A stretch of DNA of 54,438 nt from Bacteroidota bacterium. GTDB lineage: Bacteria; Bacteroidota; Bacteroidia; Chitinophagales; Chitinophagaceae. Where the stretch lies: contig JAKQJG010000008.1 in the NCBI GenBank assembly GCA_029561305.1, forward strand, positions 1 to 54,438, in the 5' to 3' direction. A program made the position numbers and the translations under genes. Under the pieces are notes generated by a model. That model had not been told where the DNA came from. It made no database searches and saw only the letters and a list, made by a program, of their open reading frames with translations. Every line of letters starts with the position of its first letter. Within the stretch, counting starts at the first letter, position 1. Shown piece after piece: positions 1 to 51,057 of the stretch.

Positions 1-3000
1 TTATTGAGTGTATCAAATTCGGGTGGGTTGCTGTGGTCAATTTCTGTAATGATGAGGCCGGATGGCTCGGTTACCAGCCAGCGGGTACACACTTTAAAAC
101 TGTCGTTTTGGTTCATGGCAAACGATACGCTGTCTATCAACACCTTTTCTCCATTGGCACGGGTATAATAAAAACGCATCCAGGCCGTGCCTTCATCTCC
201 ACCAAAATTGCGGACGTAATTACAGATGGTTATACTGTCGCCAATGGCGAATGAGCCCTGCGACAGGGTAATGGCCTCGAACAGGCTGTTGGCAAAATCG
301 GGCGCCCCGCCAACAATGATGGCACGGGTGGCTTCATTATTCCGTTCATTTCTTTCCGGCTGCCGGTTTTCTGCATCCACCCTCACTTTAATCACTTTTG
401 GCCCCACGATACCAGAAGCATACAATGCCGTTGCCAGTACCGTGGTGTCCTGTCCGGGGTACAGGCTATCGATCGGTATCAGGCTTCCCAGTGCCACATC
501 ATCTACAAAAAACTTTATTTTGGTAGGCCCCACCGGTGCATCTCCCATATTAACAACGGAGGAAGCAACCGTTATATACTGACCGGGGTCAGGATTGAGA
601 TTACTGGGCGAAATGTACTGACTCAATATGTGCAGGTCACCAATGGTTGTCCGGGCGTCTACATGTATCCGCCCCACATTATCGCTTTCACTGATCTCAC
701 ATATTTCCCCTGTATAATCTGCAAAAGCATTTATGATTAACCGGCCCACTGTATCAAAAGCATAAAAGAAGCCACTGTTGGTTTTTTCGCCTGCCCTTAA
801 ACTGGGAATTACATCTGTACCAATCACCTGCCCGTTCCACTTAAACTGCACCTTGATATTGTTTGCATTCCGGGTGCCGCTATTGCGTACCGTGGTTTCA
901 AAATAGGTAAGAATACCCTTGGGAGCAATGTAGGGGCCGCAGAGCGAAATGGCATTAGGGTCTGTAGTATTGTCACTGAAAAAACCTGCCCCGGCGTTAT
1001 CATTGATATCATCACAGCGTCGCCCGGCTTGTATATTTATGCCCAGCAATGCGGTATCCGCATTATTCTTTTCATTTGATTCGTTTACAACAGTATCCAC
1101 ATCTGCAAATATGGTTATTTGTTGCGGACAAGGGTTGGATGGAACCGTATAAGGTGTTGAAACAACCATCACTTCTGCGCCGGCATTTAAAGAAGGAATA
1201 TTGATGGCAGAACCTAATGGCATACCATCCACTTTAAAGGCAACTTTAAATGGTATACTCACCGGTAATACCTGGTTCTTTATCCTGGCGGTAAAATTAA
1301 CAAGCGAACCCTGGCTAAGATTGGAGTTGGAAATACTAATACCTGAAACACTTATATCAGGTTTCAACTCTTCTACTATAAACAATGCTGTAAGTGTGTT
1401 ATTATCTTCCCGTAATTCAGCTACTGTATTTTTTACATCCGTAACAATAGTAAGGTAGTGGGGGCCTGTTGCCCATCCTGGCCTGTTATAGTTAATATAG
1501 AAGCTGGAACGGGGCGGTACAGCATTCACAACAAAAGAATCCAGCAGTATGCTTTCAGTGTAACCTGGCATAGAATCGTACAGGTAGATCATATGAAGGC
1601 CAGCCGGCACACCACACGCAGTGTTTTTATCCAGGAATGCAAAAGCAGTATGGCCGGTTTTAGAAATACCCTCCAGGCTAAGGTCTGCCAGCGGTACCAA
1701 CACTTCAAAATTGGTGCTGCCGGTAATTTCCCTTCTTTCACCATTGGCAGTATAATACACATGTGTGTATGACGTGCTGTGGCTGCCAAGTGGTAGCCCG
1801 GCCATAGTGTCGGTAAATGAAACCCTGCTGCAGGTGATGATAGAATCCAGGATATGGGTTTGTTGCAATTCGCCATCCCTGTATATTTCAATCGTATCCC
1901 GGTTCACGGTAGGAGCACACAATCTTTGAAACCGTGTCCAGCTAAAATTCTCAATCGTTAGCGTGTGGGTGAACGATTCATTTTCCAGCAGGTAACCCTT
2001 GTTATCCTGGGTACAATTTAGGGCAGGGCCCCCACTATGCTGTATTTCACCAACCTGGTTGCAGTTGGCACAGGGTATAATGAATGTGGATTGGTAAAGG
2101 GCACTGGTAAGCGTGTAATCGGTTACCTGCACCGAGTAGGTATAAGGAACGCCACATGGAAGGCCTTCGCAGGTTACCGGGTCGGGGTCTGATGCACAGG
2201 GATCGAAACGGAAAGACCACTCACCTTTAATGTCGGTATGCAATGTGTAAATCGTTTCTTCTGGTGTGTAAATTTTAAGCGTAACGGTGGCACCTTCTAC
2301 CTGGGGTGTTCCCTCAAGGTTCAGACCGGTATAGGTGGCCACACCACCAAAATTTGTTTTGCCCTTGTTGCAAACAGACGTGCTGGCGCTGGCTGAAGCA
2401 ATGATTGCACCTGGCAAGGTAAATGCGCCTACTAATACAGCCCTGCTGGCATAATTATTAAGAATGTTACCTTCTCCCAGCACGCGGGCGCTGTCTATCC
2501 ACACTTTTACCGGGTAATAGCCATCAGGAGAAAATGACAAGGGCCGGGTAAGGGCTACACTGCTGTTGGCATCAATAAAAGGAATAGTATCCTCAAAAAG
2601 ATAAATAGAGTCTTTATAATAAAAACGCACAGGAACCCCGGATGCTGAATAATCGGAGTTATTGTGTATGGTAGCAGTAACGGTAAAAGGCTCTCCTGGA
2701 TTGGGGCGCTGGTTACTAAATACAATATCACTGGCATAGATATGCAGATCGAGGATATCCCGGGTTACCACCGGCCCGTTGTTATAGTCAATGCCGGTAA
2801 CAGCCAGGTTGCCCAATGAATCTGTTGCAAAAAACTGGTATCCATATAAATCACTGGCGGGCAAATCGGTCGCGTAAGTGTATTTTTCTCCCGCAAGCCA
2901 TTGGCTGGCATTGCTGACTTTTGTGAGTGTGTAAACACCTTCGCCAGCATCTGCAAAATCGCCATCCCCGTTTTTATCAATACCCATTTTAGGGAATCCT

Positions 3001-6000
3001 GTCATGGGCGCAGTACCATTCGGATGCCGGTAAATTATCCCGTAGGTGAATAATCCCGGAGGCGCTACAGCGGGGTTTACCCCGGTAATTCCATTATACG
3101 GCAGGTCTGGTTGAAATAACAGTTCAGGTGGGGAAGCCTTTACATAACCGGTGCCCGTTACAATTGCTCTTAAAATGCCAAGGCTGGCATTATTAGCTTT
3201 TATATTAATTTGACCCGAATAACTTATAATGGCAACAGGTGTAAACCTTACGGTCATAGTAACAGTGCCGCCTACCGGTAAATTAGTAATACCAAAACTG
3301 GTTGCCGTAAAACGTGGATTAGGAGAGCTGATGATAGATATCCGTAATGGTATGTTACCGGTATTGCGTATAATAAATTCTTTTGATGCGGTCTGGCCCC
3401 TCTCCACACTGCCAAAGTCATAACTGGAAGGTGTAACACTCCAGGCAGGTGCAGCCACCACACCCCTGCCCTGCAGTGTAATATCAAAATTACCGGCAGA
3501 GGTATGCAAGCGGGGTATACCCTGGTAGATAAGTAAGGCGGCAGGCACAAACCTAACGGGTATAGAATAACTGGTACCCGGCGGCAATGATACCGGCCCG
3601 GCAAACGTTGTGCTGAATGGCAACTCCAGGCCTGCCAGGCTGTCAATGGTTTCTGTGAGTGTACCCGTGTTGGTGATAACAATATTTTTAATGACGGCGG
3701 AATCCTGTACCACGCTGCCAAAATCCCACAAGCCCGGGGAAACGGTTAAAGCACTGAAATTAACCGTCACCGTCATGGTATCAGTTGCGCTGCAACCCTG
3801 TAAGCTGGTGGCAGTAAGACTGTAGCTGGTAGTTATACCCGGTGACACTACCGTGCTGTTGCCTGCGGCCCCGTTGCTCCAAAGTAAATTGCCCGTACCC
3901 GTTCCTGTTAGTGTCACGCTGCTTCCTCTCAGCATTGACTGGTCCGGGCCTGCGTTTACCAGCGGAAGAGGGCTAACCGTTACCGTTACAAAACCTGTTC
4001 TTGTACCGCAGCCATTGATGTCTGTTATCTGCACTTCGTACGTGGTACTAACGGCGGGGCTTACCGTATACATGGCTGCAGCCGGCCCACCCACCCACTG
4101 GTAAGCGCTTCCACCGGCAGCCCTTAATGTTGCACTGCCGCCGGCGCAGATAGCTGTATCTAAAGAAACCGTGCTTACGCCCGGCAGCAGCCGGATCACC
4201 GCCTCTGAGAGCGTATCATTGGAAGACCGCTGATCGGCTGTTAATGCAGTGAAGATGGTTAACTGGTAAAGCTGGTTGCCATTGGGTATCGCAACAGGAG
4301 TTGTGAATGTAAAATCCCTTTCTTCACCAGCCGGGATGCTGCTGCTGAATGTTTCGGTTACAGGCGCATTATCATCAAGACGGTAACCTACCGTGAAACC
4401 AGTTGCAGCAGCAGTACCTGCATTACGGATGGTAACGGTTACGGCTGGTGCAGTTCCCAATCCGCAACCGCTTGCAGGGCTCAGCAGCCGAACTGGTGCC
4501 AGGTCGTTTGCCAACGGTGGATTGATGGAAAAGCTGGTTTGAGCAGTAGCAGGATTATAATTCTGGTTACCTGCCTGGCTGGCGGTTACTGTAACCGTGC
4601 CACCACCTAAAATACTGATCACGTTACCGTTGATGCTTGCCACACCGCTGGCTGGCACTGTAACGATACTCAATGTTACCGGCAAGCCCGAACTTGCGGC
4701 GGCACTTACGGTAAATGCCGCATCGTTAAAATTTTTATTGGGTATGCTTTGTAAATTGATGGTTTGACTGGCTTTTGATATCTGCAGTGAACTGTCTTTG
4801 CTGCCCTGGTAATTTGCAGACGTGATACTGGCGCTAACTGCATACGCTGCTGCATTTACCGGAAGGGCAAAAGAACCATTGTAGGTAACAGCTGTATTCA
4901 GTCCCGGCGGCAACGTTGTAACAGTTGCGGATTTACCAGTACCGTCATATACATATTCCAGGTTGCTTAATGCAATGGCAGCTGCTGCTTTGTTTACCAG
5001 CACAGGGAGCGAAGCAGTAGCGGGATTAAAGCTGGCATTTCCTTCCTGGAAGGCGCCAACAGTAATAACCCCTGCACCGGTGATGGTAACCGTGCTGTCG
5101 GTAATGGAGCCGGGGCCACTTACAATACTGTACTGCACCGGCAGGCCGGAAGATGCTACAGCACGAACCACAAATGCAGGGTCGCCATAGGTTTTGGCAG
5201 ATTGCGGACTGAAAGTGATCACCTGGTTATTGCGTACCACCGTAATCAAAACAGGTGCAGACTGGCTGCCAGTGCCACAGGCATTGGTATAGGCTACTGT
5301 ATAACTACCCGTTTCATTATCAGGTACAATATAGTTTTGCGCTGTTTGCCCGCTGATCAATACGCCATCTTTAAACCACTGGAAACCTGTAACACCCTGT
5401 GCAGTCGATACAAACGTAGCAGTAAGCTGCCTGTTGTTTACTGTGATAGCAGGAGTAAAGGCCGGAGCAGCAGCAAAAACCTGTACGATCAATTGCACCG
5501 CAGGGCCGGTTCCACAGTTATTTGTTGCCGTTACTTTTAAAGTATCTGTTCCGGCACTTGTCCAGCTAACGGTGGCGGATGACCCATTAGGTGTAAGAGT
5601 ACCGCCACCGGATAGTTGCCATGCATAAGAAGACCCGGCGTCAAAATTGGATACAGCATATACCTGCGGAACAGTACAGGTTTGAGCAGGCCCATTAATA
5701 CTATATGAAGATCCGGGAATCCTGTTGATTGTAACGATATCAGCACTTTCCCTGCTGGTACTAACGGGTGCATTGGAAACAATCCTGATCCGGTAGCCGT
5801 TGCCTGAAGCTGCAGCGGCCGGAATAATACAGTTAATAGTACCTGAGGTATCACTCTGTATAGACCCGATAATCACAGGCGATGCAAAACTGCCATTAGC
5901 AGCGGACAATTGTGCAGTAAATGTATTGCCCGTACTGAACCGGGTATTCACCGTATAAGTCACCTGCATATTTTCTCCGGCACATACTGTGTTCGGCACA

Positions 6001-7226
6001 TTCCCAATAGTTACAGTGGGAATAACAGTGGATGAGATGGTAAATGTATCTATATTGGTTATACTCCACTTACCATCGGCATCAAGGCTTCGGATATAAA
6101 ACCGGTGAAAGCCGGCTGCGATGCCGGTAAGGTCTGCATTGAAAGGCAGATTGGAAATATTGGATGCAGCCATAACAGGTATATTGTTTGCCAGGCCGAA
6201 CCCAGGATCAATGTCAATAAAATACTCTGCCTTTACGATATTGGGCAATGAAGTGGACACCGATTTATAAAATGCCAGTTTATTGGTAACACTCCAGTAT
6301 CCATCTGCATCAAGGCTGCGAATATATAAATTATGTAAACCTTCGGATACAGCTTCCAGCGGAATGACAACCGACCCATCCTCAATATTACCCGAAGCTG
6401 TAACAGGTATGCTGGTAGCAGCACCAAAACCCGGATCGGTATCAATAAAATACTCGGCCTTCACTATGTTGGGCAGGGCGCTGGACATCGTTTTATAAAA
6501 TGCCATTTTATTGGTAACACTCCAACGGCCATTGGCATCAAGGCTGCGGATATATACATTATGGAATCCATCGGATACACCTGTCAGTGGAATTATAACG
6601 GACCCGTCATCAATATTACCCGAAGCTGTAACAGTTATGCTGGTAGCAGCACCAAAACCCGGATCGGTATCAATAAAATATTCTGCCTTTACTATGTTGG
6701 GCAGGGCCCTGGATACCGTTTTATAAAATGCCATTTTATTGGTAACACTCCAGCGGCCATTGGCATCAAGGCTGCGGATATATACATTATGGAACCCATC
6801 GGATACGCCTGCCAGCGGAATGACAACCGATCGGTCCTGAAGATTACTCGAGGCTGTAACAGGTATATTGTTGCCAGCACCAAAACCCGGATCGGCATCA
6901 ATAAAATACTCTGCCTTCAAAATGTTGGGCAGGGCGCTAAACACCGTTTTATAAAATGCCGTTTTATTCGTAACACTCCAGTTGCCATTAGCATCAAGGC
7001 TTCTTAAAAATAAATTATGAAATCCTTCTGTTGCAGATGCCAGGGGAATACTAACAGAAAAATCAGCGATATCCCGAGCAGCAGCTACAGGTATACTCAG
7101 GGCTGCGCCGAAACCAGGATCTGTATCAATAAAATACTCAACTCTGGTAATGTTAAGTTGCGCCTCTGCGTTGGAGAAGGCAAAAAGGCAACATAAAACA
7201 GTTAGTATGTTTTGCAATTTTTTCAA
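1..7226 (-). CDS. Giant secreted adhesin-like multi-domain protein (partial, C-terminus off the left edge)
   Basis: One reading frame stays open on the minus strand from 7226 to the left edge, giving at least 2408 residues. The start is inferred to be TTG at 7226-7224: a stop lies five codons upstream, no ATG is near, and TTG gives a good signal peptide (about residues 1-23, ending NAEAQ). Order of parts: five 76-residue repeats (30-409, each with EYFIDxDPGFG and LHN/FHN..IRSLDA.G.WS); Ig/PKD-like segments (about 410-660); MBG/YDG-type repeats (about 664-899); a CARDB-like domain (about 900-1010); two more PKD-like segments (about 1016-1153); two Hydin/ASPM-like domains (about 1156-1361); then further CARDB-like domains to the edge (for example about 1495-1593). 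Such architecture is typical of Bacteroidota surface proteins exported by the type IX system. The sorting domain would be outside the window. It is probably co-transcribed with the beta-helix gene 27 bp upstream. Ligand unknown. Confidence 0.85.
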   Translation of the reverse strand, partial: MKKLQNILTVLCCLFAFSNAEAQLNITRVEYFIDTDPGFGAALSIPVAAARDIADFSVSIPLASATEGFHNLFLRSLDANGNWSVTNKTAFYKTVFSALPNILKAEYFIDADPGFGAGNNIPVTASSNLQDRSVVIPLAGVSDGFHNVYIRSLDANGRWSVTNKMAFYKTVSRALPNIVKAEYFIDTDPGFGAATSITVTASGNIDDGSVIIPLTGVSDGFHNVYIRSLDANGRWSVTNKMAFYKTMSSALPNIVKAEYFIDTDPGFGAATSIPVTASGNIEDGSVVIPLEAVSEGLHNLYIRSLDADGYWSVTNKLAFYKSVSTSLPNIVKAEYFIDIDPGFGLANNIPVMAASNISNLPFNADLTGIAAGFHRFYIRSLDADGKWSITNIDTFTISSTVIPTVTIGNVPNTVCAGENMQVTYTVNTRFSTGNTFTAQLSAANGSFASPVIIGSIQSDTSGTINCIIPAAAASGNGYRIRIVSNAPVSTSRESADIVTINRIPGSSYSINGPAQTCTVPQVYAVSNFDAGSSYAWQLSGGGTLTPNGSSATVSWTSAGTDTLKVTATNNCGTGPAVQLIVQVFAAAPAFTPAITVNNRQLTATFVSTAQGVTGFQWFKDGVLISGQTAQNYIVPDNETGSYTVAYTNACGTGSQSAPVLITVVRNNQVITFSPQSAKTYGDPAFVVRAVASSGLPVQYSIVSGPGSITDSTVTITGAGVITVGAFQEGNASFNPATASLPVLVNKAAAAIALSNLEYVYDGTGKSATVTTLPPGLNTAVTYNGSFALPVNAAAYAVSASITSANYQGSKDSSLQISKASQTINLQSIPNKNFNDAAFTVSAAASSGLPVTLSIVTVPASGVASINGNVISILGGGTVTVTASQAGNQNYNPATAQTSFSINPPLANDLAPVRLLSPASGCGLGTAPAVTVTIRNAGTAAATGFTVGYRLDDNAPVTETFSSSIPAGEERDFTFTTPVAIPNGNQLYQLTIFTALTADQRSSNDTLSEAVIRLLPGVSTVSLDTAICAGGSATLRAAGGSAYQWVGGPAAAMYTVSPAVSTTYEVQITDINGCGTRTGFVTVTVSPLPLVNAGPDQSMLRGSSVTLTGTGTGNLLWSNGAAGNSTVVSPGITTSYSLTATSLQGCSATDTMTVTVNFSALTVSPGLWDFGSVVQDSAVIKNIVITNTGTLTETIDSLAGLELPFSTTFAGPVSLPPGTSYSIPVRFVPAALLIYQGIPRLHTSAGNFDITLQGRGVVAAPAWSVTPSSYDFGSVERGQTASKEFIIRNTGNIPLRISIISSPNPRFTATSFGITNLPVGGTVTMTVRFTPVAIISYSGQINIKANNASLGILRAIVTGTGYVKASPPELLFQPDLPYNGITGVNPAVAPPGLFTYGIIYRHPNGTAPMTGFPKMGIDKNGDGDFADAGEGVYTLTKVSNASQWLAGEKYTYATDLPASDLYGYQFFATDSLGNLAVTGIDYNNGPVVTRDILDLHIYASDIVFSNQRPNPGEPFTVTATIHNNSDYSASGVPVRFYYKDSIYLFEDTIPFIDANSSVALTRPLSFSPDGYYPVKVWIDSARVLGEGNILNNYASRAVLVGAFTLPGAIIASASASTSVCNKGKTNFGGVATYTGLNLEGTPQVEGATVTLKIYTPEETIYTLHTDIKGEWSFRFDPCASDPDPVTCEGLPCGVPYTYSVQVTDYTLTSALYQSTFIIPCANCNQVGEIQHSGGPALNCTQDNKGYLLENESFTHTLTIENFSWTRFQRLCAPTVNRDTIEIYRDGELQQTHILDSIITCSRVSFTDTMAGLPLGSHSTSYTHVYYTANGERREITGSTNFEVLVPLADLSLEGISKTGHTAFAFLDKNTACGVPAGLHMIYLYDSMPGYTESILLDSFVVNAVPPRSSFYINYNRPGWATGPHYLTIVTDVKNTVAELREDNNTLTALFIVEELKPDISVSGISISNSNLSQGSLVNFTARIKNQVLPVSIPFKVAFKVDGMPLGSAINIPSLNAGAEVMVVSTPYTVPSNPCPQQITIFADVDTVVNESNEKNNADTALLGINIQAGRRCDDINDNAGAGFFSDNTTDPNAISLCGPYIAPKGILTYFETTVRNSGTRNANNIKVQFKWNGQVIGTDVIPSLRAGEKTNSGFFYAFDTVGRLIINAFADYTGEICEISESDNVGRIHVDARTTIGDLHILSQYISPSNLNPDPGQYITVASSVVNMGDAPVGPTKIKFFVDDVALGSLIPIDSLYPGQDTTVLATALYASGIVGPKVIKVRVDAENRQPERNERNNEATRAIIVGGAPDFANSLFEAITLSQGSFAIGDSITICNYVRNFGGDEGTAWMRFYYTRANGEKVLIDSVSFAMNQNDSFKVCTRWLVTEPSGLIITEIDHSNPPEFDTLN
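6000..7139 (-). repeat. Five tandem 228-bp repeats inside the adhesin gene
   Basis: The codons for the motif EYFID recur at exact 228-bp spacing (forward anchor positions 7131, 6903, 6675, 6447 and 6219). Each unit is 76 codons, so copy-number change keeps the frame. Units 2, 3 and 4 are nearly identical, while the first and fifth are more diverged, as expected when inner copies are homogenised by recombination. Confidence 0.9.
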
Positions 7227-45967: not shown

Positions 45968-47617
45968 TCACCAATCCTTTTCCGGCTTTTCAATCGTCTG
46001 TGCATCCGTCTTTTTTAATTTATCCTGCAGGTTCTTTTCCTGCTGCAGCAAGGCTTTTAGTTTTTCTTCTGCTTCCTTTTTGGTCATTTTACTCGCCTGC
46101 GGTTTAGGTGGCTGCGGCTGTTGTGGTTGTTTTTGCTGCTGCTTTTTTTGTTCCTTTTTTTCCAGGTCCTGTTGCTTTTTTTGCTCTTGTTGTTGCTGCT
46201 GCAGGGCTTTTTGCAGGTTCAGCCGGGCATCTTCATCTGCAGGATCGAGTTTCAAGGCCTGCTTGTATGCATCTATGCATTCACGCAATTTCTTATCATT
46301 CTGCAGCAGTACACCCTTATTATACCAGGCTGCTGCTTTGTCCTGGTTTGTTTTGCTGAATGCGATAGCTTTGTCATAAGCCTTCAGCGCACTGTCGGTG
46401 TCATTGTTTTTATACAGCGCATTACCAAGATTATAATGAGCCGCAGCGTCGCCGGTTTTTTTATTGATGGCTTTTTGATAGTGCGATGCGGCCTCACCAT
46501 ATTTTCTCTCTTTGTACAGTTCATTCCCCTGTTTGATCTCTTCATTGCTGTTTTGCGAAAACAGTTGCAGCGATGAGAGCAGGCAAAACAGGAGCGGTAT
46601 AACAGTTACGGGCAATCGCTTAGCTTTAAATATCTTTTTATTTTCCCCCATAAAGAATTCAATTAGTAACAGCAGCAAAGCCACACCCAATATCCAGGGA
46701 AAATAATAGCGGTAACTGGCATGTGACATTTCAGTAATGCCCCGTTTTTCCATGGTGCCTAATTGCTGCTGTATTGAACCGGCTGCTTCATCACTGTTTG
46801 TTAAAGAGAGATAGATACCCCCGGTTGCTGCAGCAATATTTTTTAAACTTGTCTCATTTAATCTGGTGATCACTGTTTTGCCTTCTGCATCTTTTTTTGA
46901 CTCGCCGGTTACAGGATCGTCAATGGTGGCGCCTTCTGCAGAACCTATACCTACCGTATTTACCATCACACCTTCTTCTGCAAGTGAACGGGATAATTTT
47001 ACTGCAGATTCATCATGGTCTTCGCCATCACTGATCAGTACAATCGCTTTATATTTTTTTTCCTTTGCATTAAAGGCAGCAAAGCTCATTTGCAATGCAT
47101 CGCTGATAACAGTACCCTGGGTGGGCACCACATCGGGTGCAGCAGTAGAAAGATAAAGTTTGGCGGCAGCCAGGTCGGAAGTAAGCGGCATTTGCAAATA
47201 AGACCTTCCGGCAAATACTACTATCCCCACCCTGTCCTCTGGTATCTTGTCTATCAATTTTGATACAAATTGTTTTGCTCTCTCTAACCGGTTGGGTTTT
47301 ATATCCTGCGCCAGCATGCTCCTGCTTACATCTAAAGCTATCATTACATCAATCCCTTTATGCTTTACATTGCTGCTGCCATCCGGTTTGCGTGGATTGG
47401 CCAAAGCAATCACCAGTAAAATAAACGCCGCCGAAACAAGAAGAAACTTGCTGCGGAATTTTTGTGGACTATAGTTGCCAATGAGTTGCTGAACCAATAA
47501 AGGGTCACCCATTTTTTGTAATTTTTGCCTCTTCCATTTGTTATATAGAAAAAACAAGACGGCCATGACTGGAACGCCGCACAACGCAATTAAATATAGT
47601 GGGAATTGAAATCTCAT
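45968..47617 (-). CDS. BatB-BatC fusion: membrane VWA domain protein with TPR domain
   Basis: 549 residues from the ATG at 47617; the first ATG (47635) lies inside the -7 box at 47633-47640, so it is disfavoured. Numbering here follows the longer frame. Two N-terminal membrane helices (11-31, 64-80), a VWA domain with an intact MIDAS (DVSRS at 102-106, Thr152, Asp203) and a third helix (313-329) form BatB. Residues 338-361 look like a second signal peptide (PLLFCLLSSLQLFSQ), followed by three or so TPRs (363-470) and a Gln/Lys-rich coiled tail (478-545), i.e. BatC. Bat proteins support envelope stability and oxidative-stress tolerance in Bacteroidota. BatA, BatD and MoxR are not in the window. 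Confidence 0.85.
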   Translation of the reverse strand: MRFQFPLYLIALCGVPVMAVLFFLYNKWKRQKLQKMGDPLLVQQLIGNYSPQKFRSKFLLVSAAFILLVIALANPRKPDGSSNVKHKGIDVMIALDVSRSMLAQDIKPNRLERAKQFVSKLIDKIPEDRVGIVVFAGRSYLQMPLTSDLAAAKLYLSTAAPDVVPTQGTVISDALQMSFAAFNAKEKKYKAIVLISDGEDHDESAVKLSRSLAEEGVMVNTVGIGSAEGATIDDPVTGESKKDAEGKTVITRLNETSLKNIAAATGGIYLSLTNSDEAAGSIQQQLGTMEKRGITEMSHASYRYYFPWILGVALLLLLIEFFMGENKKIFKAKRLPVTVIPLLFCLLSSLQLFSQNSNEEIKQGNELYKERKYGEAASHYQKAINKKTGDAAAHYNLGNALYKNNDTDSALKAYDKAIAFSKTNQDKAAAWYNKGVLLQNDKKLRECIDAYKQALKLDPADEDARLNLQKALQQQQQEQKKQQDLEKKEQKKQQQKQPQQPQPPKPQASKMTKKEAEEKLKALLQQEKNLQDKLKKTDAQTIEKPEKDW

Positions 47618-47632
47618 TGGATCCTTGCTGTT

Positions 47633-47640
47633 CAAAGATA
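47633..47640 (-). promoter_or_regulatory. Bacteroidota -7 box (TATCTTTG) for the BatB-BatC gene
   Basis: Exact TAnnTTTG on the minus strand, 15 bp before the ATG at 47617. It overlaps the upstream ATG at 47635, which decides for the shorter start. Confidence 0.5.
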
Positions 47641-47734: not shown

Positions 47735-48691
47735 TCAGTGCTTATATTTCACAGAATAATCTGTCAGTATACTATCCACCAGTTTTTTAGTAAAGATGAT
47801 GGCATAGACCGGGTTTAAATGACAATCATCATAGTAGAAGGTACTGTCGTGTGCAGGGGCTTCATTTTTATAGGTAAAAGACGACCACTCATAAAACCTG
47901 TTATAAGCCGGTATGTTGGGTATGTTGTTTTCTGTAACATCCAGCAGTTCATATATTTTTTTTGCCACCGGCATATACACACCGTAAACAACCGATCCTT
48001 TGCTTTGCAGTTTTTTAATCAGTTCATTTGCTTCTGCCTCGTATTTGTTAAGTTCGGCCTTTTTAAAATTCTTTGTAAACCCGCTGAACATTTTGTGCTG
48101 TTCCACAGCCCTGGCAGTATAAGCGCCGTTCTCTGTAACCGTTACACCGCCCAAAGAGTCATACACATGACTTTTAAAATACAAGGGGGTGCGTTTTATC
48201 CAATACCATACTGACTGATCACGGAAATAACAATTCTTATCGAGCCAGTGATTGAATGCTTCGTATTTCCTGTTGTAAAGAGAATACTCAATGGTATCCG
48301 TTCCATGATTTTTGTGGGTGCCATAGTTGGGCGCATAACCATGTATAATGATCCGGGGATGTATATCATTTTTTACTAAAAACCGCAATACATCCAGACC
48401 GTTTTTTCCAGGAGTGGCCATATTCACCACATTACCTTCTATGCCAGCCTCCTTTATTTTTTCTGCAATGGTCAATGGTTTAATGCCCCATTCGGGCCTG
48501 CTGTCACCAATAACAAGGATAGTGCTATTGTTTATTTTGGGCACAAGGTTTTGTGCTTTTGCGTAAATATCGTGATGGGCTATCTTGGGAACTTTCAATA
48601 AACGGTACAGTAATTCCAGCGCCACTATCAGCACAAAAAATAGCAGCGTCATTGTTAGCGTCCTTTTTAAAAAATGCTTCATAAAAGGCAT
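47735..48691 (-). CDS. Membrane-anchored SGNH-like protein, partner of the MBOAT acyltransferase
   Basis: 318 residues, one N-terminal membrane helix (about 8-30) and a periplasmic domain. The motif IGDSRPEWG (Ser64) and DDCHLNP (Asp288 to His291) are placed like block I and block V of SGNH esterases/acetyltransferases. Its start overlaps the MBOAT stop by one base (TAATG), so the two are translationally coupled. In AlgI/AlgJ/AlgX, PatA/PatB and Dlt-type systems such a pair moves acyl groups across the membrane and onto an extracellular polymer. The polymer here is unknown. Confidence 0.75.
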   Translation of the reverse strand: MPFMKHFLKRTLTMTLLFFVLIVALELLYRLLKVPKIAHHDIYAKAQNLVPKINNSTILVIGDSRPEWGIKPLTIAEKIKEAGIEGNVVNMATPGKNGLDVLRFLVKNDIHPRIIIHGYAPNYGTHKNHGTDTIEYSLYNRKYEAFNHWLDKNCYFRDQSVWYWIKRTPLYFKSHVYDSLGGVTVTENGAYTARAVEQHKMFSGFTKNFKKAELNKYEAEANELIKKLQSKGSVVYGVYMPVAKKIYELLDVTENNIPNIPAYNRFYEWSSFTYKNEAPAHDSTFYYDDCHLNPVYAIIFTKKLVDSILTDYSVKYKH

Positions 48692-49440
48692 TAAAACTGG
48701 AAATAAATAAATTGCTGTTCACCACCTGCAAACCAAAATACAGCGAGGGCGATGGAATAATACAGTGCATAGCGCCACGGCTTTTTCAATTTGACATCCA
48801 AATGTGCTATTGCATACTGTTCCCTCCTGCCAAACCATTCGATCACCATAAATACAACAATGCAAAATGCGGCTATCACCATCTCCGAAAGGTTCACCTG
48901 GGGTATTGACAACAGCGATTTTGAAAATATTTTTTTTACGATACCAAATGCCTGCTGAACGGTGGAGGCCCTGAAAAATATCCAGGCCAATACTGTGAGA
49001 CCAAAAGTCAGCAGGATAGAAAATACTTCAGCTGCTGTTGGCCATCGCCTGTCTCTTGCCACGATATCAATATTGTTGCGGTGTGTTTTAAAGATGATGG
49101 AAGGCATAATGTAAAGGGCATTTAATAATCCCCATACGATAAATGTCCAGTTGGCCCCATGCCAGAATCCACTCACTAAAAATATGATGAAAGTGTTCCT
49201 GATCTTGATCCAGGTACTCCCTTTGCTTCCGCCAAGCGGGATGTATAAATAATCTCTGAACCAGGTAGAAAGCGAGATATGCCAGCGGCGCCAAAATTCT
49301 GCGATGTCTCTTGAGAAATAGGGAAAGGCAAAATTGCGCAGCAGGCTGATACCAAATAACCTTGCTGTACCCAGGGCAATATCTGAGTAGCCTGAAAAAT
49401 CACCGTAAATCTGGAAGGTGAAAAACAAAGCGCCGATCAA
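48691..49440 (-). CDS. MBOAT O-acyltransferase, C-terminal half (downstream of frameshift)
   Basis: 249 residues from an internal ATG; the same frame continues upstream to the A6 run at 49518-49523. It contains the catalytic half of an AlgI-like MBOAT: QIYGDFSGYSDIALG (10-24), FWRRWHISLS (49-58, with conserved His54) and SGFWHGANWTF (90-100, active-site His94). Joined to the upstream half it gives a 481-residue protein, the usual length. Without the frameshift correction it would lack the first half of the membrane channel. It ends in a TAATG overlap with the SGNH gene. Confidence 0.8.
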   Translation of the reverse strand: MIGALFFTFQIYGDFSGYSDIALGTARLFGISLLRNFAFPYFSRDIAEFWRRWHISLSTWFRDYLYIPLGGSKGSTWIKIRNTFIIFLVSGFWHGANWTFIVWGLLNALYIMPSIIFKTHRNNIDIVARDRRWPTAAEVFSILLTFGLTVLAWIFFRASTVQQAFGIVKKIFSKSLLSIPQVNLSEMVIAAFCIVVFMVIEWFGRREQYAIAHLDVKLKKPWRYALYYSIALAVFWFAGGEQQFIYFQF

Positions 49441-49514
49441 TAAAGTACTGCCTCCATATTGCCCCGGGTTATTAAAGATGGTATTGGCATATTCAGCACA
49501 CTGATCTGCTATTA

Positions 49515-50135
49515 CTATTTTTTAAACAGGCCCCATAGTATTTGCCGCATGCCATCGGCTGCCTGTGAATAGTCAAAGGTCCTTTCTTTTTTTATTTGCG
49601 GCAGCAAATGTGTTGCTCTTTCAATAGGGCCTGCCACTAACAGGGGAAAGAAGCTAACAAACACAGCATACTCTACAAAATTCTTTTCAGCTGGTATGCG
49701 GCCTTTATAAATATCGATCACATAACTAAGCCCGTGAAATGTATAAAATGAAATACCCACGGGTAAAATTATATGCAGTACCCATGGATTGGAATGTATA
49801 CCCATGCTGGCCAGCCCTTCTGTAAAAGAGGAAATAAAAAAATTGTAGTATTTAAAAAAACCCAGGAAACCAGCGTTGACAACGATACTTAGCCAGAACC
49901 AAAATGCCTTCCACCTCTTGTCTTTTGCATCAAACATCTTTAACCCGGTAAAATAATCAAGCCAGGTAGAGAACATCAAAAGAAAAAGAAAACGCCAGTC
50001 CCAGCAGGCATAAAAGAAGTAACTGGCTGTCAGGAGCAGGATATTCTGCGTTTTAAGATTTTTATTGGCAACAAACCAATAGAGGAAAAAAACTACCGGC
50101 AGAAAAACAGCAAATGAAACAGAATTAAAAAGCAT
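49515..50135 (-). CDS. MBOAT O-acyltransferase, N-terminal half (ends at a frameshift)
   Basis: 206 residues, typical MBOAT opening (MLFNSVSFAVFLPVVFFLYW) with five or six membrane helices, PVGISFYTFHGLSYVIDIY and FFPLLVAGPIERA. The frame stops at GLFKK followed by TAG TAA TAG. In the -1 frame the same bases read IVIADQCAEYANTIF, the expected continuation. The shift point is the A6 run (T6 on the plus strand, 49518-49523). Either one A was lost, or ribosomes/RNA polymerase slip here, or it is an assembly error. Confidence 0.8.
   Translation of the reverse strand: MLFNSVSFAVFLPVVFFLYWFVANKNLKTQNILLLTASYFFYACWDWRFLFLLMFSTWLDYFTGLKMFDAKDKRWKAFWFWLSIVVNAGFLGFFKYYNFFISSFTEGLASMGIHSNPWVLHIILPVGISFYTFHGLSYVIDIYKGRIPAEKNFVEYAVFVSFFPLLVAGPIERATHLLPQIKKERTFDYSQAADGMRQILWGLFKK
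49518..49523 (-). other. Homopolymer A6 frameshift site in the MBOAT gene
   Basis: CTG TTT AAA AAA TAG on the minus strand: one extra A, or a -1 slip, restores the full-length reading frame. It sits at the GLFKK/IVIAD junction. Confidence 0.85.
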
Positions 50136-50221: not shown

Positions 50222-50243
50222 AAGCGCTAGTTGTGATGGCGCT
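50222..50243 (-). terminator. Possible hairpin terminator after the beta-lactamase gene
   Basis: AGCGC and GCGCT arms (five pairs) with a 12-nt loop begin within the stop codon; downstream on the minus strand comes TTCAAAATTTTTA. Weak. Confidence 0.3.
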
Positions 50244-51057
50244 ATTTCTTTCCTTCAAAAAAGCCATATTGCTTTAAAATGCCTTTTAAAATACTAAGTC
50301 TGGCAGTCCGCATGTCGAAATCTTTATTGGGATTTTTTACCAGCAGGGTAAAAAAGTAAGGATGTTTGTTTTCTTCTATCCAACCCACGATCCACCCGAT
50401 ATTGGCATTTTGCTCGTCAAAGCCCCAGCCTGTTTTATAGGCCAATGTGTATTGGGTGGTGTTTTCCTGTATCATCATATCCCTAACAATTTGCTGGTTG
50501 CGTTTTTGAAAAGGTAACTGGTCAAAATACAGCCGTTTTACCAAACCAAGTTGTTCATCAGGAGAAATTTTCATGGTATTGTTCAGCCAGAACGAGTCCA
50601 CCGCCCCGTTAATTTTTTGAGTGCCGTAGTTTAACGTGTCTAGCCATTTTTGCATGCTGTCCTTAGTGATCCTTCTTGCCACTTCCTGGTAATAGTTGAC
50701 AGCGCTGACCTTAAAAGCCTGTTCCATAGTAAGATCACGGTTCCAGTCATCGTTCCAGCGTTTAATACTGTCCCATTTGATCAGCATTTTTTCATCCTTT
50801 ACCACATTTGTTTCGAGACCAACCAGGCTGTTGACGATCTTAAAAGTGGAGGCGGGCAAAAAACGGGCAGTATCCAATGCCATATTGTATACCGTTACTT
50901 TTCCAGTCCCATTATCAAAAAGTGTAAAGCAGCCTTCTGCCTTGTGTTCGTCAAAGTACTTTTTCAGACTGGTATCAATTTCAGCTTTGTTTACTGAACA
51001 GCCCGTAATAACAAATAACGAATAACAAATAACGAATAAGAGAGAGAGGCTTTTCAT
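50242..51057 (-). CDS. Class D (OXA-type) beta-lactamase, lipoprotein-like
   Basis: 271 residues. The signal peptide ends in the lipobox ITGC (Cys20), suggesting a membrane-anchored periplasmic enzyme. Class D motifs are complete: STFK (Ser70, Lys73, the lysine that is carboxylated), SAV (118-120), YG (144-145; YGT instead of the usual YGN), Trp157 and KTG (208-210). NIGWIVGWIE follows as in OXA enzymes. It hydrolyses beta-lactams; the spectrum cannot be told from sequence. No LysR/AmpR-like regulator or mobile element is adjacent, so it looks like a resident chromosomal gene. Its signal peptide is encoded partly by a 14-bp tandem repeat. Confidence 0.92.
   Translation of the reverse strand: MKSLSLLFVICYSLFVITGCSVNKAEIDTSLKKYFDEHKAEGCFTLFDNGTGKVTVYNMALDTARFLPASTFKIVNSLVGLETNVVKDEKMLIKWDSIKRWNDDWNRDLTMEQAFKVSAVNYYQEVARRITKDSMQKWLDTLNYGTQKINGAVDSFWLNNTMKISPDEQLGLVKRLYFDQLPFQKRNQQIVRDMMIQENTTQYTLAYKTGWGFDEQNANIGWIVGWIEENKHPYFFTLLVKNPNKDFDMRTARLSILKGILKQYGFFEGKK
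51011..51038. repeat. Perfect 14-bp tandem duplication in the beta-lactamase signal peptide
   Basis: The unit ACAAATAACGAATA (plus strand) is present twice in a row. It encodes part of the hydrophobic core LFVICYSLFVI. Fourteen is not a multiple of three, so loss or gain of one unit shifts the reading frame near the start of the gene. Confidence 0.9.

Follow-up and report, generated by a model that had tools for sequence, protein, structure and literature searches.

A frameshift at a six-base A-run splits an MBOAT acyltransferase gene of a Bacteroidota bacterium at a site that is also broken in other lineages

The window, by which we mean the whole stretch of 54,438 nucleotides that was analysed, is an entire contig, one of the 443 that make up a genome of 4.83 Mb, and has a GC content of 42%. 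On its minus strand an MBOAT gene lies split between two reading frames, which together extend from 50135 to 48691. The first half (minus strand, 49515..50135), delimited by its ORF and its homologues, encodes 206 aa and ends in W-G-L-F-K-K-stop, the DNA reading TTT AAA AAA and then TAG directly past the A-run. The second half (minus strand, 48691..49521) lies in the other frame, which is open for 276 codons (49521-48694) before its stop and is preceded by TAA (49524-49522). Since the first frame is closed by TAG (49517-49515) and the second by this TAA, the sequence and the frame extents place the transition at 49515..49524 on the minus strand and confine the shift to TTTAAAAAATAG, about ten bases, which is in effect the A6 run (49523-49518), ~42% of the way into the gene. 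The first-pass annotation had proposed that a frameshift at this run splits an MBOAT gene, with the halves at 50135-49515 and onward to 48691; the break is real, and those coordinates agree with the reading frames found here. Its length of 481 residues for the joined protein also agrees as arithmetic (206 + 275), a sum obtained without building the joined protein. Production of a split enzyme by reinitiation was thought unlikely, the first usual start in the second frame being a TTG (49440) 28 codons in.

The second half was matched by Pfam PF03062 (MBOAT; E 2.2e-22, 80.2 bits versus a cut-off of 27) and, in a sequence search, matched solved DltB structures. The first half alone gave no match in the Pfam scan; against NCBIfam DltB (TIGR04091) it reached E 1.6e-9, far below the curated cut-off, and its homologues in other genomes are up to 80% identical among the matches listed. 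Relatives of the second half that carry names are mostly Bacteroidota, e.g. Mucilaginibacter, Flavobacterium and Chitinophaga (best 80 of 586), and the genome is accordingly taken to be that of an environmental member of the phylum. A set of relatives was assembled from 123 distinct proteins with the sought motifs, 111 of which were of the usual length, with identity above 50% in 98 of those 111. The catalytic His, in the motif GFWHGANW, and the C-terminal FIYFQF are both present in the second half of the window's gene, bearing out the expectation that the two halves keep the conserved motifs; the His was found in 98/98 close relatives, FIYFQF in 95/98 and the Tyr of the latter motif in 98/98. 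In the PatA/PatB system, the His and the Tyr motif are both required for PatA auto-acetylation (PMC12148441). Because the catalytic His and the acyl-Tyr motif lie past the stop, the 206-aa product, which has neither, should be inactive.

Directly after the MBOAT gene comes an unbroken 318-aa ORF (47735..48691, minus strand) for a probable SGNH-type partner, with GDS and D..H-like motifs that we take to be SGNH-like. Its predicted structure (mean pLDDT 39) was too poor for use. Among genes lying 3' of related MBOATs, 4/136 show a weak resemblance to it (E 6.1e-7 at best, in a small set), and it was matched in only 3/59 genomes, its own counted. With matches so few and so weak, the putative partner is probably evolving quickly. 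The locus resembles the MBOAT-SGNH systems PatA/PatB, AlgI/AlgJ-AlgX and DltB/DltD in its MBOAT domain, its invariant His, its FIYFQF-type C-terminal motif with Tyr, and a neighbour with candidate SGNH-like motifs. It differs from them in that the MBOAT gene is split and the putative partner had no match in Pfam, NCBIfam or a PDB sequence search.

Other features of the window were also noted. Beside the MBOAT gene, the sequence at 50242-51057 (minus strand) is similar to class D beta-lactamases, scoring 244.8 bits against NCBIfam bla_class_D_main, slightly short of the cut-off of 250. A VWA and TPR protein, like BatB and BatC joined, is encoded at 45968-47635 (minus strand), with all matches below NCBIfam cut-offs, and a reading frame of 2408 codons at 3-7226 (minus strand) runs off the contig end. 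Scans of the window with ARAGORN and with Rfam at the gathering threshold gave no hits.

Runs of the length of the broken one are common in this DNA. The 48,951 coding bases of the window hold 168 runs of at least 6 bases, 54 of them 7-8 long and eight of length 8, so that the A6 run is itself unremarkable and the break is the remarkable part. Within the split gene, longer runs are unbroken (T7 three times, A7 and A8). No other frame break was recognised in the window from the ORF list and Pfam scans of 18 proteins. Long genes elsewhere in the genome were also whole. Five of the seven RND matches are near full profile length and 5/5 of these are unbroken, the other two being short and partial. 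Near-complete coverage of the profile was reached by 12 of 42 SusC matches, and 12/12 of these are unbroken; three long matches end no more than 84 bases from a contig start, and the shorter rest were not judged. A stop was seen in 0/44 ABC-transporter matches, a short domain that says little. A generally poor, frameshift-ridden assembly was therefore rejected on the strength of the whole RND and SusC genes and the single break recognised in the window.

Both halves of the gene appear otherwise intact. Compared with the 98 relatives, the window has lost 0/65 near-invariant columns before the break and 0/76 past it, in keeping with the earlier description of two sound halves; many further disabling mutations in the second half, which would have spoken against that description, were looked for and the same 76 columns showed none lost. 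The difference in identity between first and second halves falls inside the spread of the relatives, 35/98 of which show an equal or larger difference, and the second half is thus not unusually diverged by this comparison. With no columns lost and no excess divergence past the break, the break is recent, rescued or an error. An old, decayed pseudogene was rejected, a single lesion being seen here with 0/141 conserved columns lost, as against a related locus (L160) with several stops. The closest relative in the first half among the matches listed (G373, 80%) is whole at this site, with a frame of 481 aa.

The site was then compared across 172 distinct fetched copies, a set biased in that some loci were fetched because their frames looked short. 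The frame remains open for at least 200 codons past the site in 160, meets a contig end in 3, and in 9, the window counted, stops before the site or fewer than 200 codons past it. Twelve first-half matches had been dropped beforehand (7 that do not reach residue 195 and 5 with insufficient sequence beyond the site). Before most of the directed fetches, 136 distinct copies held four short ones: the window, L029 (in G040), L081 and L160, the last of which had itself been fetched as a suspected break. Among the 160 intact copies, the run is interrupted by G, through synonymous codons, in 76, reads A7 in 44 and A6 in frame in 38, and 2 copies are without the Lys-Lys pair. A break at the site with the other half open was found in 3/172 copies, the window counted. 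Downstream RNA structure did not exceed that of shuffled sequences at the window's site (z 0.51), nor did it exceed chance at the corresponding site of G368 (z -1.02). A conserved programmed frameshift was rejected, given the 160/172 copies that read past the site and the missing stimulatory structure. The locus is like programmed -1 frameshifting of the dnaX type in that a stop in the original frame comes after an A-rich site, but the split is not conserved and the canonical in-frame heptamer is absent. Of the three origins offered by the first-pass annotation (recent, programmed or error), the first and the last therefore stand, and the programmed one falls, since most copies read on and many interrupt the run.

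Breaks at this spot also occur in two more lineages. In G368, from another family of the same order, A6 is followed by TAG TAA and the remainder is open in the other frame; this copy has likewise lost 0/65 conserved columns in the first half and 0/76 in the second. Its locus (L198, G368:C26 13392-14009 and on) shows an A6-TAG MBOAT break matching that of the window. G040, also from a different family, has an extra base a few nucleotides past the site, opposite in sign to the base missing from the window; the other frame of its second half is open for 262 codons and aligns with residues 2-249 of the query taken from the second half. The G040 break (L203, the same locus as L029, on G040:C64, at about locus base 2110) is not within an uninterrupted run. 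Longer runs, A8 and T7, are unbroken in G368, and runs of A8 and T7 are unbroken in G040 as well.

Where all matches were listed, the window was the sole copy with an open frame ending at the site; this holds for the genus search (1/141 matches in 93 genomes), the class search (1/141 matches in 395 genomes) and the family search (1/112 matches in 394 genomes), sets that overlap and were read by open-frame length, by which copies at contig ends cannot be judged. Among the matches listed in further searches, G368 was the only additional case, and the broken copy of G040 was not among them. Breaks at the site are rare, yet they recur at one codon. In the comparison of the run in related genomes that had been suggested at first pass, the gene is mostly open, though broken at this spot in two further lineages.

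Related copies are also lost in other ways. L159 has its break elsewhere, near residue 134. In L081 the Trp codon of the His motif is replaced by an in-frame TGA, which lies 118 codons beyond the site in a gene otherwise open over the match; this may be a nonsense mutation, an error or a recoded TGA. L160 has several lesions and L218 a stop before the site. Recognisable sequence is lost in the second half of L201, L202 and L205, the first two inside contigs and L205 near a contig end, which may reflect truncation, recombination or chimeric assembly. G425 holds a truncated second MBOAT copy. The clean one-base breaks are those of the window, G368, G040 and L159, too few, and too much the product of partly directed fetching, for a formal clustering test.

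The most economical account, and one we hold to be somewhat probable, is that a recent one-base loss inactivates an accessory MBOAT gene at a recurrent site. One base would have been lost from the A-run that follows the Lys-Lys codons in a gene for a surface-polymer acyltransferase, presumably by replication slippage, and would be missing from the DNA of the cell itself. Translation would halt at once and yield the 206-aa fragment. The MBOAT and its neighbour, which may acylate a surface polysaccharide as a pair, would thereby be off together. The genome has MBOAT matches at three further places, where frames of 480, 528 and 553 aa are open, so the loss may be tolerable; at 33-47% identity in matched pieces, these copies are related only distantly to the split one by sequence, too distantly for redundancy to be assumed. 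The reading of a recent loss draws on the frame bracket, the intact columns of both halves, the ordinary divergence of the second half, the whole copy in G373, the whole RND and SusC genes, and the loss of related MBOATs elsewhere too (the 9/172 short copies). Two things count against it: a consensus error would look identical, and breaks in two further lineages at the same place exceed the coincidence expected of random loss, as each broken gene keeps longer runs unbroken.

An assembly or consensus error, in which the run in the cell is longer and the gene is whole, ranks second and is rather unlikely. The division of the genome into 443 contigs and the perfect conservation of both halves fit an error, and singleton frameshifts have been classed as either indel mutations or sequencing errors (PMC3711429). 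Set against this, the break is the sole one recognised among the runs of at least 6 bases in the coding sequence of the window, eight of which have length 8, and the long RND and SusC genes are whole, as are the ABC-transporter matches, so far as that short domain can tell. Homopolymer frameshifts in Blochmannia endosymbionts (PMC3017870) likewise involve a single indel in an A-run of a gene that is otherwise intact; as described there, the AT bias of the endosymbiont genomes is extreme and tracts of at least nine bases are numerous, whereas here the run is of 6 in a window of 42% GC. Transcriptional rescue of such frameshifts is described in the same source, and compensatory frameshifting at indels in another (PMC5009743). 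Rescue of this kind at the present site, by ribosome or RNA polymerase slippage on A6 before TAG, would give some full-length enzyme, so that indels persist and the halves stay intact, and we regard it as very unlikely. The Lys-AAA codon could re-pair one base back with the stop codon in the A site, both A6-TAG copies (the window and G368) keep all conserved columns, and, for some bacteria, runs of fewer than nine bases are considered capable of transcriptional slippage (PMC1088944). The same source finds selection against A/T runs evident mostly from about nine bases, and a survey of E. coli and Buchnera reports no detected transcription error that restored a frame (PMC5574713); moreover, neither A6-TAG copy has downstream structure in excess of chance, the site differs from the A_AAA_AAG heptamer, and such a slip site is absent at the break in G040.

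A slow reversible switch, in which the run alternates between in-frame and out-of-frame lengths and thereby switches acylation of the polymer on or off across the population, appears improbable. The A6-TAG state is shared with G368 from a different family, G040 has a break of opposite sign at the same site, A7 is the run in 44/160 intact copies, a surface function is probable, and a general role in reversible gene inactivation has been proposed for short poly(A) tracts (PMC2831843). In that report, isolates of one species show intact, shortened and interrupted forms of a short poly(A) tract, and the same three forms occur among the relatives here; the present comparison is between species, not strains, reversibility is here a proposal, and the site is mid-gene, rather than near the 5' end as proposed there. 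The run is interrupted in nearly half of the intact copies (76/160), many unbroken runs of the window are at least as long, and the G040 break lies outside any uninterrupted run. Homopolymer phase variation typically involves a long or conserved repeat, which a run of 6, so often interrupted, is not. The exact letters of the site were found in 1/93 genomes, the window's own, the relatives being other species and the search having almost no power for within-species variation; viral contigs gave 0 occurrences. The titles and abstract openings of the few papers listed on phase variation of MBOATs or O-acetyltransferases described no MBOAT switched at this site.

As a single case, the recent loss that we prefer makes this an ordinary frameshifted accessory gene. 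Recurrence in three lineages at one spot, with longer runs unbroken, suggests either that the spot is prone to mutation or misassembly, or that surface acylation is slowly switched there. On the furthest-reaching form of this idea, which we consider improbable, the A-run of the Lys-Lys codons, midway along MBOAT genes of Bacteroidota, would be a shared, recurrent break point, kept reversible through A6/A7 slippage or rescued in part by leaky decoding, that switches surface-polymer acylation at the same codon in unrelated lineages.
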